DNA from: Brugia malayi
Taxonomy: Eukaryota; Nematoda; Chromadorea; Rhabditida; Onchocercidae
Reading direction: 5' to 3'
DNA length: 64,000 nt
NCBI RefSeq assembly: GCF_000002995.4
Contig: NW_025062475.1
Coordinates: forward strand, 6,328,187-6,392,186
Both the position numbers and the translations under genes were made by a program. The notes beneath the pieces were generated by a model, which saw only the letters and a list, made by a program, of their open reading frames with translations, was not told the origin of the DNA and did no database searches. Position 1 is the first letter of the stretch. Each line of letters opens with the position of its first letter. Positions 17,209 through 23,155 of the stretch are shown here, in pieces.

Positions 17209-19633
17209 ATGAATTCGAGCACTCCTTGGTTAGTTTCGCTTTTGCTGTCATCTCAAATTGATAAATAATTTATCGTTAGTCTCAAAAATCTTTGGACATT
17301 ACCTGGTGGCGATTGAGGTCAAAGTAAGACGAAGTAAGATAAAATTTTACTTCTTGTAATACGAAACTAAACTGAAAACAGAGGAACCTATGAGCTACCA
17401 GAACTTAAGTAATTGAATCTGAATTAAACTATAGACAAAGTCTGTGAAGTTATCACTACTAGTAGTTTGCTCCGAATGGCGATAAGTTGTCGTTAGTTTT
17501 TTTTTTTGTTGTTACAGGCATTCTTATGTTTTGTTTTTCACACCATTAGATTCTAGCTTCTACTGAATGACTAAATAACAATAAATAACAAGGTTTTATG
17601 GAAACTGTTTCATTATAGGGTCGAAAAATACCGGCCAAAAATGTTGTCAGAAGTGGTCGGAAATGAATTTGTTATTCAACGTTTGGCTGCCTTTGCAAAG
17701 CAAGGAAACACACCAAATATTATTATTTCGGTTACTTTTTAAAGTTTTATTTCATGTACAAGATTTTTAAAATCTATTTCTTATCGTAAGTCTGTCCGTA
17801 AAGCCTGTTTTCATTGACTTAATTCTTTTCTGTGCAATTTTAATATTATAGCTTTTGAGGGACCGCCAGGATGTGGCAAGACAACGAGTATGTGGGCATT
17901 AGCACGGGAGATGCTCGGTGATCGTCTTAAAAATGCATGTTTGGAATTGAATGCTTCCGATGACAGGGAAATATTTTTCAAATTCTCGTTGTTTTCAATG
18001 CTTATTGCTTTCTGGACCTTTAATCTTAATTGTTCACTTACATATTCTTAGATTTCAAGTAAAGCTTCGCTCAGTAATGATTTATTTAAGCATCAAACTA
18101 TTCTGAGAATATTATCAACGATTTTAGGGGGATAGACGTTGTACGAAATAAAATCAAAACTTTTGCACAAAGTAAGGTTACGTTGCCACCGGGAAGACAT
18201 AAAATAATTATACTAGATGAAGTGGATTCAATGACAGAGGGGGCGCAACAAGCGCTCCGAAGAACAATGGAGATATATAGTAAAACGACTCGCTTTACAC
18301 TGGCGTGTAATCAGTCTGGGAAAGTCATAGGTAAATTATCCGCATGTTTTAATTTTACTGTGGTAGTTAATCTTTTTTGGGAATAATTCTGTTCTGATGC
18401 TTAGTAGATAATTATCAATGCAAAAGAGAAGCAGACTGTCAGCAAAAAAAGAAACTATCATTTAGAGGAATTGACCTGAAAATTTTTAATTAAATTCTTT
18501 GATGCGTTAAAATTTGCCTACAAAAAATCTAAGAGAAAACTCTTCGGAAGAAAAGGGTGTTTTCCTGAACTTGTTATTTTAGAACCGATTCAATCTCGTT
18601 GTGCTATTTTGCGTTTTTCGAAACTTTCTGAAGAACAAATCGTGAAAAGATTGTTGCAAATATGTGAAGCAGAAAAGGTAACATACGATGATAGTGGGAT
18701 TGACGCTTTAGTTTTTACTGCTCAAGGAGATATGCGGCAGGTAATTTCTTTTGGGTTTCCGCATGATTCTAAACCACATAAAGTTCAAATTACATATATG
18801 ATCTGTTTGCAATAATTTAATCTAATTGGTTGACCTGGTTTAATACGTTAATTTTATTCGTGTGTTTTTTCTAGGCTCTTAACAACCTGCAATGTACAGT
18901 AGTTGGCTTCAACAATGTCACGGCTGATAATGTTTTCAGGGTAAGCTCTGTAACCTATCTTCATCTTTTTGTTGAGAGGAAATAAAAGCTGTGACATCCG
19001 GATTAAAAATTCTTTTCTGGAGATTAGGTAATTAAACAAATACAAGCTACAAATGTAAAAGGATATTGACGTCTAAAGATGTAGATTCAAGAATGGTTGA
19101 AACCATAAAGTTCCGTAATGGATCGGCGTTAGGTAGGAAGTTTCGAAAATCAGTGTGATTTTATTCAATATATCGCAGTAGTGTAAGACAGTAAGTCTAT
19201 AATTTCCTAATTTGTAGCTCTAAACTTTAGCCACCACAATGCATTTTATGATATATCATGTCAAGGTATGTGACGAGCCACATCCGCAAATGGTAATGCA
19301 AATAATCGAGCATTGTGTTCATGGGAAAGTTATCGAAGCTGGTGAAATTGTGCATAGTCTCTATCGGATGGGTTATTCAGCAGAAGATATCCTTAACAAC
19401 ATGGTTCGCGTGTGTAAAACACTCAGTATTCCTGAATATCTAAAACTGGAATACGTGAAGGTATTGTTTTTTCATTTGAAGTGTATGGAATTGATGGAAC
19501 TGTTTATATGGTGCTGAAGAATTAGTGATTTCAGGAAATTGGTTTGTGTCATGTACGAATTGTGGAAGGAGTTAGCTCACTACTTCAGTTATCTGCACTG
19601 GTTGCTCGAATGTGTCTTAAACAAAGTCAGTGA
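17209..19633 (+). CDS. rfc-2: Replication factor C subunit 2 (RFC40-type clamp-loader ATPase)
   Basis: Exons 17209-17228, 17619-17730, 17860-17966, 18128-18330, 18583-18740, 18875-18940, 19266-19460 and 19535-19633 give 319 residues (human RFC2 354; the missing part is the N-terminal extension). Motifs: [17 protein letters not shown], Walker [28 protein letters not shown], Walker [11 protein letters not shown] (DEVD, where human has DEAD), the SRC arginine-finger motif in [25 protein letters not shown], and VCDEPHP with the C-terminal collar domain. RFC2 is part of the pentameric RFC complex that loads PCNA at primer-template junctions, and of the Rad17, Ctf18 and Elg1 variant loaders. Intron 3 has a non-canonical GGAAAT donor. 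A trans-splice-like acceptor lies 30 nt upstream of the ATG. The gene converges on coq-2 with only 104 bp between the stop codons. Confidence 0.97.
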
Positions 19634-19737: not shown

Positions 19738-22700
19738 TTACTCAATAAATTTTTCAAGGAGAGCAGGATTCGTTCCTTCTTTTTCTTCTTTCCGTAACAA
19801 ATTCCCAGCGACAATACCAGTAAATAAAATAATACCAAGCCACTGGAAAAAAATGATAAAAAACTGATATGGATATCTTTCCGCCTTGATTCATATTTAA
19901 GATCTTAAAATAAATTCTTGTATCCAACTGTAGAAATGTGTTTCAGAATTTTTATCAATATGTTATTCCTGAGTAAAAGCAAAGCCTAGTTTTGAATCAA
20001 ATCTTCTCCTTTGAGGAAAACTGTTTAACTTGCTGAATCTTTGTCGAAATTGAACGTACTATAATTTATCACTGATAAGTTTATATATTTCATCTTTGAA
20101 AACATGATGCAAAAAAATTCTTTTGACTGCAATCTTAGGAACAAGGATGAAAACAATTTGTCTATTGGATACTATTAAGATATTTTATGTTTGAAAAACA
20201 TTAACATATTGTCTTACCTGATTAGTTTTAAATTTTCTCCAGCAATCCTTTGGATCATTGATATTCACGGTGCCAATCTGCCATGCAAGATGCACTCCGG
20301 TAGCAGCTAAGGCACCATAAAAGGGCCATGTCTGTTGCACCATAACACCTGTGGTTCCAAGACCTAGCATGGTAAGAGCTGCGAAACCAGTCAACCAATG
20401 CTTCGTTCTATCACCGAAAAGTAGAGCAGTAGATTTAACACCGGCTATCAGATCATCTGCTTTATCCTAAACAGTTAGATCGAAGTGTAAGAATTAAAGG
20501 ACGCACCTCAGTGTTTATATATAAAAAATAATAGGAATCTATTATGCCAGTAATATATTAATCGTAGATTTTTTTAGTCCTATGATATTGTCCCATTGTC
20601 AAATGATCTACAGTGTTTTTGTCTGCGAGTATATTTGGGGTATACTGGAGTATATTGTGTCCAAGCCTATTCCACCTGATGAGCGTATATTGTGTCGTAA
20701 ATCAGAGTCCAATTCACCGAAGCCATATACAGTAAAAGCACCACTGTGCACAATTCGTCGCGTATAACGGCCCAGCCCAGCAGTGCTCCCCAGTTGAATA
20801 CCAATCCTGTGGAATCAGTAGTAGAAGTAAGTTCTTGGATGATTACTCTTCTGCGACCTTTCAAGCTCTATTATCCCATTACTTAAATTATAATGCACGG
20901 GTGGATAGCTGGTGCAAAATCTAGTCTAATTAAATCTTGAAGAAAAATTGCATTTCACTTCGTTATAAAGTGGAGAAGTTAACCTTCACACATAAAGTTA
21001 AGTTTCCAAAACGAATTATGCATTTGTGAAAACTTTTCTATTAAGGGCTTTAATTCCAAAGAGCAAAGCTGTTCAAGTTTTGGATGTAGGTTTAAAGCTT
21101 CGGAATTCAACTAGGACATCGTCTTCACTTTCCCAAAAAGCATTTTTGATGAAGCATTAGTGAAGCGTCATGCGATTTTTGCATATTTTATAACCATTAT
21201 AAAAGCTTAGTTGAAACTGTTCGATTCTTTTCAAAGACTAGAGAAAATCAATATTATTTTTGGTGAGCGCAAATTAATTGAAATGAGGTAGACAAAGAAA
21301 TCAATGGCGAATAGCATTGTGCGAAAATAAATTAAATCAGTGGGATGAAAGAAATGAACAACCCCACGATGCAGAACAAAGTAAGCAACTTATAATGAAA
21401 AAAAAAAAAAAAAAAAACGAACAAACAAACAAACGATAACATATTTTAGAAGCAGATAAAGAAGAAAGGAAATAACAGTATTTTTGATGCTAAGGAGATT
21501 CGGAAGCTGTGTTAGGTATCATCCAAATTCTAAATTTTATATTTAAGATTTTCCAGATTTTCCTTAACTCTTTTGCAAGTTCTTCAAATCTTGTAGTACC
21601 AAGCATCAATGATGTGAAGCTTGTTTTGTTGGAACATGATAATAGAAGGTACAGTACCTGGTGACTATATATAGTGTCATATGTAGCAGTGTAAAGCACG
21701 GTGGCAGTGTACAAAGGAATGACAGTAAGTAGTGTGTTCGGACACAAGTGAGACCACGCAATAAATACTCCCCAGTTAGAGGTAAGCCCTGAAATTCTTG
21801 AACAAGAAATGAATGTTCAAGTTTTGGATGTAGTTTTCAGTTCTTAAGTTGCAAAGCAGTGATACTGTGAGAAATGCATTAGTTTGCAAAGCACTACAAT
21901 CGAGAAAAAATTTTGTAAGTTTTGACCAAATTAAATCTAATTTCTGAAAAACTCTAAAACTACAGTGGCGAACACATTAAGGCGAATGTTTATCAGACTG
22001 AAAGAATTTTTAAGAGTACCAAGGACGAACTGTGGCCAATATGTATAGCGCTTTGCCAATGGATATACAACAACTAGAAATAATGAGCTAGCACCCACTG
22101 CAACGCTGAAATGACATGTATTCAAAACGACTTATTTTTCATACCACAAAATCATCAAATTAAAGTCCATTTATTTTACTGGAAATGATGGTCATTACAG
22201 TATTTGTAATCAGGCATAATTACCAATATTCTGCAACGGCAAATTTGATAATTCGTGCTTGCCCTACGTGAAAATAAAATGTTCCAGATGAATAAATGCT
22301 AATTTATTTGAATAAGACAAGAATATCTGTTAGCTCGAGAAATAATTATAAACATAGTATTTGAGGAAGTAGAAGTCTCGAAAAGAAGGAAGACAAAATG
22401 AATAAGATCAGCAATAGAAGAAACCTGAACCAGCTGAACTGTAGAAGTATCGCGAGTGATCCAGATAGTAATACTGCAAGAACAGAAAGAGCTTGTCGGT
22501 TACTAAGTTCTCCACTTGCAAGAGGTCTTGACTGTGTTCGTTCAACCTTAACGTAGAATGGAAGCAGAGAAACACAGAACATCTGGCTATACTGCATATC
22601 TAATGCATAAATTGCTAGATGAAATCGGAAAAGCATGAAAATAAATAAAACAGTGGTAGCATCATTAATACCATTCTGTCGTAATTCTTATCAAAAATAT

Positions 22701-23155
22701 CGTTCACAATGCAACCGGCAGAACGCATCAGAATCGACCCAGCACCAAATAATGCAAGCATTTTCAGATCGGGTAATGAACCTGGTGTTGCAGATAGAGC
22801 TATCGACCATGTACATGGCCAATACAGTAACCAAAAACCTATATAAATATCATATCTGATCAGCTACCTGTTTATATTAATTTGAACAATTTATGAATAC
22901 TCAAGAAAATTTTTTTCTGAGAAACAGTGCATCTCTGTATTGAACTCTACATAATGTTAAGAAAAACTGACCAGTAGGCTTATCGATACGCATTAGCTTT
23001 AAGTACGGTTGTATATTTTTTGGTGAAACCTGAACCAAAGCTGCACCAGATAATGCTCTTCGCGTTTCAACATAAGCAAATTTTGTCGCGAATGGCAATA
23101 ACGCTTTCTTGTAGTGGAATAATTGCCGGACGCACCGATTTGATAATGCATTCAT
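19738..23155 (-). CDS. coq-2: COQ-2 polyprenyltransferase with mutually exclusive exon pair
   Basis: Common exons 23155-22972, 22838-22672, 22546-22425, 22105-22020, 20466-20218 and 19842-19738, plus one of two 131-nt exons, give 347 residues in either form. The protein is a mitochondrial inner-membrane UbiA-type prenyltransferase that joins the polyprenyl tail to the quinone ring precursor (4-hydroxybenzoate for ubiquinone). Visible: a basic N-terminal presequence, [20 protein letters not shown], the first Asp-rich motif [36 protein letters not shown], and the second Asp-rich motif DTIYAHQDKADD, which spans the junction of the variable exon and exon 6. The variable exons are annotated separately. 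In C. elegans the choice between two such exons decides whether COQ-2 supports ubiquinone or rhodoquinone synthesis; that role here is by analogy. The exon pair is clearly seen. Confidence 0.97.
20676..20806 (-). other. coq-2: coq-2 alternative exon, canonical (ubiquinone-like) type
   Basis: 131 nt, preceded by TTCCACAG and followed by a GTGGAA donor. It completes a Gly codon with 2 nt and ends in phase 0. Translation begins [17 protein letters not shown] and ends [14 protein letters not shown], close to vertebrate COQ2 ([21 protein letters not shown]). This is the downstream member of the pair in the transcript. Confidence 0.9.
21658..21788 (-). other. coq-2: coq-2 alternative exon, divergent (rhodoquinone-like) type
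   Basis: 131 nt, with acceptor GAATTTCAG and donor CAG|GTACTG, and the same phases as the other exon. Translation begins [17 protein letters not shown] and ends [12 protein letters not shown]. Compared with the canonical exon, GALLGW becomes [14 protein letters not shown] becomes LYTATVLY, and AHQ becomes SHQ. The DTIY catalytic segment is kept, so it is under coding constraint and is not a decayed duplicate. Because 131 is not a multiple of three, a transcript containing both exons would be out of frame. Confidence 0.9.

Follow-up and report, generated by a model that had tools for sequence, protein, structure and literature searches.

The coq-2 locus and its alternative exon pair

The window, a stretch of 64,000 nt of Brugia malayi DNA, carries the prenyltransferase gene coq-2 on its reverse strand. 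Our gene model comprises exon 1, which starts at the ATG (22972-23155), exon 2 (22672-22838), exon 3 (22425-22546), exon 4 (22020-22105), exon 6 (20218-20466), and exon 7, which includes the stop codon (19738-19842). Between exons 4 and 6 lie two alternative exons, 5e (21658-21788) and 5a (20676-20806), which share the donor of exon 4 and the acceptor of exon 6. Every intron of this model starts with GT and ends with AG; the acceptors are TTTCAG for 5e and CCACAG for 5a, and the donors are GTACTG and GTGGAA, respectively. Both exons are 131 nt long and of equal phase. With the last base of exon 4 included, their translations end in ...YDTIYSHQ (5e) and ...YDTIYAHQ (5a) and are identical at 19 of 44 residues. 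An isoform that includes one, and just one, of these exons has an open reading frame of 347 codons; including both or omitting both breaks the frame and leads into stop codons. By length, phase, and frame logic, exons 5e and 5a are thus the mutually exclusive a/e pair of coq-2. An earlier note on this DNA had named the gene as coq-2 with two mutually exclusive 131-nt exons of the same phase and good splice sites; its coordinates and motif quotes are exact, the splice sites are sound, frame logic and protein matches agree with its gene assignment and arrangement, and its statement that inclusion of both exons would shift the frame is confirmed.

Database comparisons agree with this model. The e isoform is identical at 347 of 347 residues to the B. 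malayi protein Bm16942, and the a isoform differs from the a-form protein of B. pahangi at 8 of 347 positions; because of these two matches, the exon pair is not a product of chance. A search with the 5a sequence gave a single match in the whole B. malayi genome. Against the PF01040 (UbiA) profile, with a curated cut-off of 34.2 bits, the B. malayi e isoform scores 190.7 bits and the B. pahangi a form 203.9 bits. In gene models that contain both exons, for example those of Loa, Toxocara, Caenorhabditis bovis, Trichinella, and Mytilus, the e exon precedes the a exon, as in B. malayi.

Such exon pairs have been described before. PMC7434440 reports alternative coq-2 exons in C. elegans and other helminths, with counterparts in molluscs and annelids; B. 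malayi is among the genomes searched there, and its stage RNA-seq is among the data. The C. elegans pair, 6a and 6e, resembles that of B. malayi, known here from its sequence, in having neighbouring exons that are used one at a time, Phe204/Ala243 in the a form, Ser243 in the e form, and separation of the e and a forms on a tree. We therefore regard 5a as the ubiquinone-type homologue of 6a and 5e as the rhodoquinone-type homologue of 6e, assignments that draw on the gene model, the residue survey, and the exon tree described below.

Directly upstream of coq-2, and also on the reverse strand, lies a two-exon gene for an acyl-CoA-binding protein (PF00887, 23793-24336). In Acanthocheilonema, Cercopithifilaria, and Setaria, PF00887 and the coq-2 domain are found together in predicted proteins, which indicates that the gene order is kept, and the two genes possibly form an operon. 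A replication factor C C-terminal domain (PF08542) is encoded by an open frame on the forward strand (19239-19517), arranged tail to tail with coq-2.

Residues 204 and 243 of the e exon

According to PMC7434440, Phe204 and Ala243 are changed to Leu and Ser in every e exon examined, and Leu204 and Ser243 are termed invariant. In B. malayi, alignment and codon reading on the reverse strand place the published e-type Ser243 at Ser228 of exon 5e (codon AGT, 21664-21666). In contrast, Leu204 is absent: the corresponding residue, Phe in a exons and Leu in the published signature, is Ser190 (codon TCT, 21778-21780). Exon 5a has both expected a-type residues, Phe204 and Ala243. The numbering was anchored on the C. 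elegans a form, in which the spacing from the Phe preceding NWG to the Ala of YAHQ is 39 residues, and on the C. nigoni e form, in which Leu and Ser have the same spacing. In an alignment of 22 sequences, the two residues that follow Ser190 are invariant. The motif quotes of the earlier note begin at NWG, one residue past the departing position.

To survey the two positions, two protein searches were pooled (the best 120 of 1224 matches from one and 81 matches from the other; 159 proteins in all, 5 of them without a readable segment), yielding 173 segments. Among these listed matches, 103 segments have Phe/Ala at 204/243, 50 have Leu/Ser, and 13 have Ser/Ser; the rarer pairs are Leu/Ala (4), Ser/Arg (1), Leu/Ile (1), and Ile/Ala (1). 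In the Ser/Arg row, from Cercopithifilaria, and the Leu/Ile row, from Dracunculus, the gene model leaves the exon at that point. Accordingly, the 63 listed segments with Ser243 divide into 50 with Leu204, 13 with Ser204, and none with Phe204. Ser204 itself occurs in 14 of the listed rows, from 12 filarial or thelaziid species, 13 of which have Ser243, the fourteenth being a truncated gene model. The species are B. malayi (2 rows), B. timori, Loa loa, Onchocerca ochengi, O. volvulus, O. flexuosa, Dirofilaria immitis (2 rows), Acanthocheilonema viteae, Elaeophora elaphi, Cercopithifilaria johnstoni, Setaria digitata, and Thelazia callipaeda. An additional D. immitis model with a cut e exon, outside this count, also reads LTSNWG. 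Leu204 is found in Dracunculus, Ascaris, Parascaris, Toxocara, and Enterobius. The non-filarial Spirurina thus have the same exon with a similar sequence (Dracunculus, Ascaris, Toxocara, and Enterobius), but with Leu204, and the B. malayi exon differs from the e exons of C. elegans and the published set in the same way. A literature search covering titles and the visible openings of abstracts found no published report of the filarial Ser204 change. The exon pair itself is already published; the novelty lies in the departure of Ser204 from the published two-residue rule.

Three further variations were seen in the survey. Among the 13 Ser/Ser rows, the e exon has the ending YSQQ in 9; in Brugia and Loa it ends in YSHQ, as in other nematodes. 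In three Pristionchus proteins the exon is e-like apart from position 243: it has Leu204 together with Ala243 and so departs from the published signature in the opposite way. A protein of the nemertean Tubulanus shows Leu204 and Ala243 in an exon that is a-like for the most part.

We next placed these residues on trees. On a nematode tree of 25 proteins, built with the alternative exon excluded and including two proteins without the C-terminal part, a single change accounts for Ser204, and the ten species that have it fall together on one side of a branch supported at 100/98. The change is placed on the branch leading to Thelazia, Setaria, and the filariae. In a tree of the exons themselves (57 rows), one branch separates e from a with a support of 98/92, 5e lying among the e rows and 5a among the a rows. 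Since rows had been assigned by residue 204, the tree was rerun on slightly different rows with positions 204 and 243 masked; the e rows of this second tree, that of Tubulanus among them, were again assigned by residue 204. In the masked tree, the e rows need two changes and are no longer set apart by one branch. The test does not reject one clade of e rows (p 0.444), and a duplication confined to nematodes is weakly rejected (p 0.0255). These trees are at most suggestive of a single old origin of the e exon over a repeated origin. The earlier note had taken the upstream exon (21658-21788) for the rhodoquinone form and had proposed its clustering with helminth rhodoquinone-type exons as a check. 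The position of 5e among the e rows and its Ser243 uphold that assignment, with the two changes of the masked tree as a qualification.

Moreover, across the seven species in which both exons are readable (Cercopithifilaria, an eighth, has a truncated e exon and was excluded), the e exon has a mean pairwise identity of 0.90, versus 0.84 for the a exon. Judged from these sequences, exon 5e is not decaying and has been conserved since Ser204 arose.

The predicted structure of the e isoform (mean pLDDT 83.3, pTM 0.78) has its best PDB matches among prenyltransferases of the UbiA superfamily, including UbiA of Aeropyrum pernix. In this model, Ser190 ends a predicted helix at 182-190, and Ser228 lies within a long predicted helix at 203-238. 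A. pernix UbiA (PDB 4od4/4od5) has its fold and sequence family in common with B. malayi COQ-2e but differs in sequence, with 24% identity at best and a weak alignment that puts Leu opposite Ser190. To our knowledge, no exon switch is to be expected in an archaeon. In PMC7434440, positions 204 and 243 are described as near the substrates, and A. pernix UbiA was used there for threading.

Rhodoquinone-linked genes in the B. malayi genome

According to published work on C. elegans, efficient synthesis of rhodoquinone, whose most likely precursor is 3-hydroxyanthranilate, depends on COQ-2e. In PMC7434440, deletion of exon 6e is reported to leave negligible rhodoquinone in C. elegans. PMC8659336 states that C. 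elegans without 6e survives cyanide again if COQ-2a bears F204L and A243S, and that tryptophan dioxygenase (TDO) is needed for rhodoquinone-dependent survival. Searched for the corresponding genes, the B. malayi genome gives evidence that is mixed.

A kynureninase gene is present (G000:C1:433120-437000), with readable exons and splice sites; a human kynureninase query found seven of its exons at E < 0.01. The conserved lysine, which we take to bind PLP, is kept in 120 of 120 listed relatives. Of 124 near-invariant columns, 4 differ in the Brugia protein, compared with 0 to 7 in nine control rows. A dead enzyme, considered because Asn occupies the position of human Asp250, presumably a PLP contact, is not supported, as Asn is found there in 4 of the 120 listed relatives, including those of O. 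flexuosa and Dracunculus. Among the best 120 relatives listed, proteins of B. malayi, Ascaris, and Toxocara are missing, and a single partial row from O. flexuosa represents the filariae; the missing B. malayi protein is possibly an annotation gap.

An indoleamine 2,3-dioxygenase (IDO) gene is also present (G000:C138:4179779-4182010). The strong form of a loss scenario, in which the kynurenine route is gone and 5e is a relic, was rejected since the genome has IDO and a kynureninase gene whose exons can be read one after another. TDO was not found in the B. malayi genome with two profiles (E up to 0.001 and up to 10), HAAO was not found in this genome, and a single human query gave no KMO match. 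The recovery of kynureninase with a human query shows that the method works at about 40-60% identity, and a more diverged KMO could escape it. The PF01494 matches were rejected as KMO because their motifs resemble other families; by eye, we take L014 to be close to COQ6, L012 to a retinol-saturase-type oxidoreductase, and L013 to an amine oxidase. 3-Hydroxyanthranilate could form in B. malayi if a KMO exists or if the host supplies 3-hydroxykynurenine.

Two further rhodoquinone-linked genes are present. ETFDH has Phe at the position of the pig Cys in two loci (the alignment was run on one copy), which we take to be the published Phe437 change. The two loci, at G000:C135:1823903-1824418 and 3408365-3408882, are nearly identical and lie on one contig; they are either a recent duplicate or an assembly duplicate. 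Furthermore, an Ldh_2-type dehydrogenase, presumably of the archaeal-like malate dehydrogenase class, is present in the genome. According to PMC8659336, every rhodoquinone maker has that class, and none of the mammalian hosts of these worms does.

Possible function and splicing of the filarial e exon

We consider it probable that B. malayi coq-2 makes a ubiquinone form with 5a and, with 5e, a COQ-2e form that still makes the rhodoquinone precursor despite Ser204. Exon 4 can be joined to either 5e or 5a, the reading frame as sequenced allowing one alone. The 5a product would be the ordinary ubiquinone enzyme and the 5e product the COQ-2e isoform. In an ancestor that Thelazia and Setaria share with the filariae, Leu gave way to Ser at pocket position 204 with Ser243 unchanged, and the exon has stayed conserved afterwards. 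We infer that the filarial enzyme still yields the precursor because the loss of the bulky Phe, not the gain of Leu, would matter, and Ser is also small; its preference for the amino substrate would persist, since the pocket is opened by the loss of Phe and still has Ser243. This explanation accounts for the gene model and its frame logic, the exon tree, the retained Ser243, the single origin of Ser204, and the conservation of the exon. It is also consistent with the UbiA fold, kynureninase, the Ldh_2-type dehydrogenase, the ETFDH Phe, IDO, and a passage of PMC6859908 in which rhodoquinone was detected in all nematodes and platyhelminths analysed for it. Against it stand the absence of Leu204, TDO and KMO not being found in the searches above, and the masked e rows that fall off a single branch. 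On these sequence-based observations, rhodoquinone synthesis in B. malayi is likely, and use of COQ-2e for its precursor is inferred from them. The earlier note, which went further and concluded that this worm can make rhodoquinone, is in that respect supported in part.

A less likely explanation, which we nevertheless regard as a serious one, is that COQ-2e was retuned in filariae, such that Ser204 shifts the preferred aromatic substrate, for example back to 4-hydroxybenzoate or to another aminobenzoate, and rhodoquinone is no longer the main purpose of the isoform. Filariae inhabit blood, lymph, and tissue, not the gut. A clade-wide Ser at one signature position in an exon that is still constrained would fit such a shift, as would the failure to find TDO with two profiles and KMO with one human query. 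However, Ser243 is kept, kynureninase is readable and constrained, IDO could supply the first step, and the Ldh_2-type dehydrogenase and the ETFDH Phe are both retained. Either the two-residue rule needs amending, so that it asks for Ser243 and for any residue but Phe at 204, or the role of COQ-2e is a different one in filariae. Filariae are the agents of lymphatic filariasis and river blindness. In PMC7434440 and PMC8659336, rhodoquinone synthesis is pursued as a drug target specific to worms, and its expected selectivity is put down to the two pocket residues of COQ-2e. In filariae, the pocket differs from that description.

A bolder reading, which we hold to be doubtful, is that filariae and thelaziids rewired the COQ-2e pocket once, by Leu204 to Ser, perhaps with IDO replacing TDO, as a third substrate setting, and that exon choice in B. 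malayi may also use an RNA hairpin. The candidate splicing element is a 24-nt direct repeat, found by a repeat search, with one copy in the intron ahead of each alternative exon. On the reverse strand, copy 1 (21814-21837) ends 25 nt before exon 5e and copy 2 (21070-21093) ends 263 nt before exon 5a; the copies are identical at 23 of 24 positions. Genome-wide (86.8 Mb, at most 2 mismatches), the repeat occurs at these two sites and in one other place. Similar local repeats were seen in 6 of 105 sliding windows, at 3 places in the window including the coq-2 intron site. Within copy 1, CTTGAACA can pair with TGTTCAAG, which is unique within 20660-22030, and folding predicts a structure (21780-21845, reverse strand) that pairs copy 1 with TGTTCAAG and in which the whole 5e acceptor TTTCAG is paired as well. 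Copy 1 could in this way close the 5e acceptor, while copy 2, ahead of 5a, could compete for pairing with TGTTCAAG and free it.

The predicted fold has an energy of -14.4 kcal/mol (z -3.0), with 1 of 200 shuffles equally good, compared with z values of -0.54 to 1.29 for six other coq-2 acceptors used as controls. Among the 108 TTTCAG sites in the window, the target included, 3 are as stable and 10 have all six bases paired; the 5e acceptor is the one site that is both. The hairpin was examined post hoc, after the repeat had been noticed, and we treat it as a lead only. A D. immitis protein with the intron read through ends in ...KILILCSEISG, and its codons, in our own reading, seem incompatible with the same stem.

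The predicted hairpin over the 5e acceptor would also fit a situation in which exon 5e is present in the DNA yet hardly used in B. malayi, the gene making the a form. We regard this as improbable, since the exon and its splice sites are intact and the e exon is more alike across species than the a exon. In addition, the B. malayi database gene models include the e form, a gene model being distinct from transcript proof, and the junctions in Figure 3 of PMC7434440 are reported there as confirmed by RNA-seq, B. malayi not necessarily being among them. Finally, the idea that Ser204 is an assembly error or a misalignment can be set aside almost completely: we found nothing in its favour, and the same Ser in rows of 12 species, the two invariant residues after it, and the 39-residue spacing from 204 to 243 in the C. 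elegans a form and the C. nigoni e form all argue against it.
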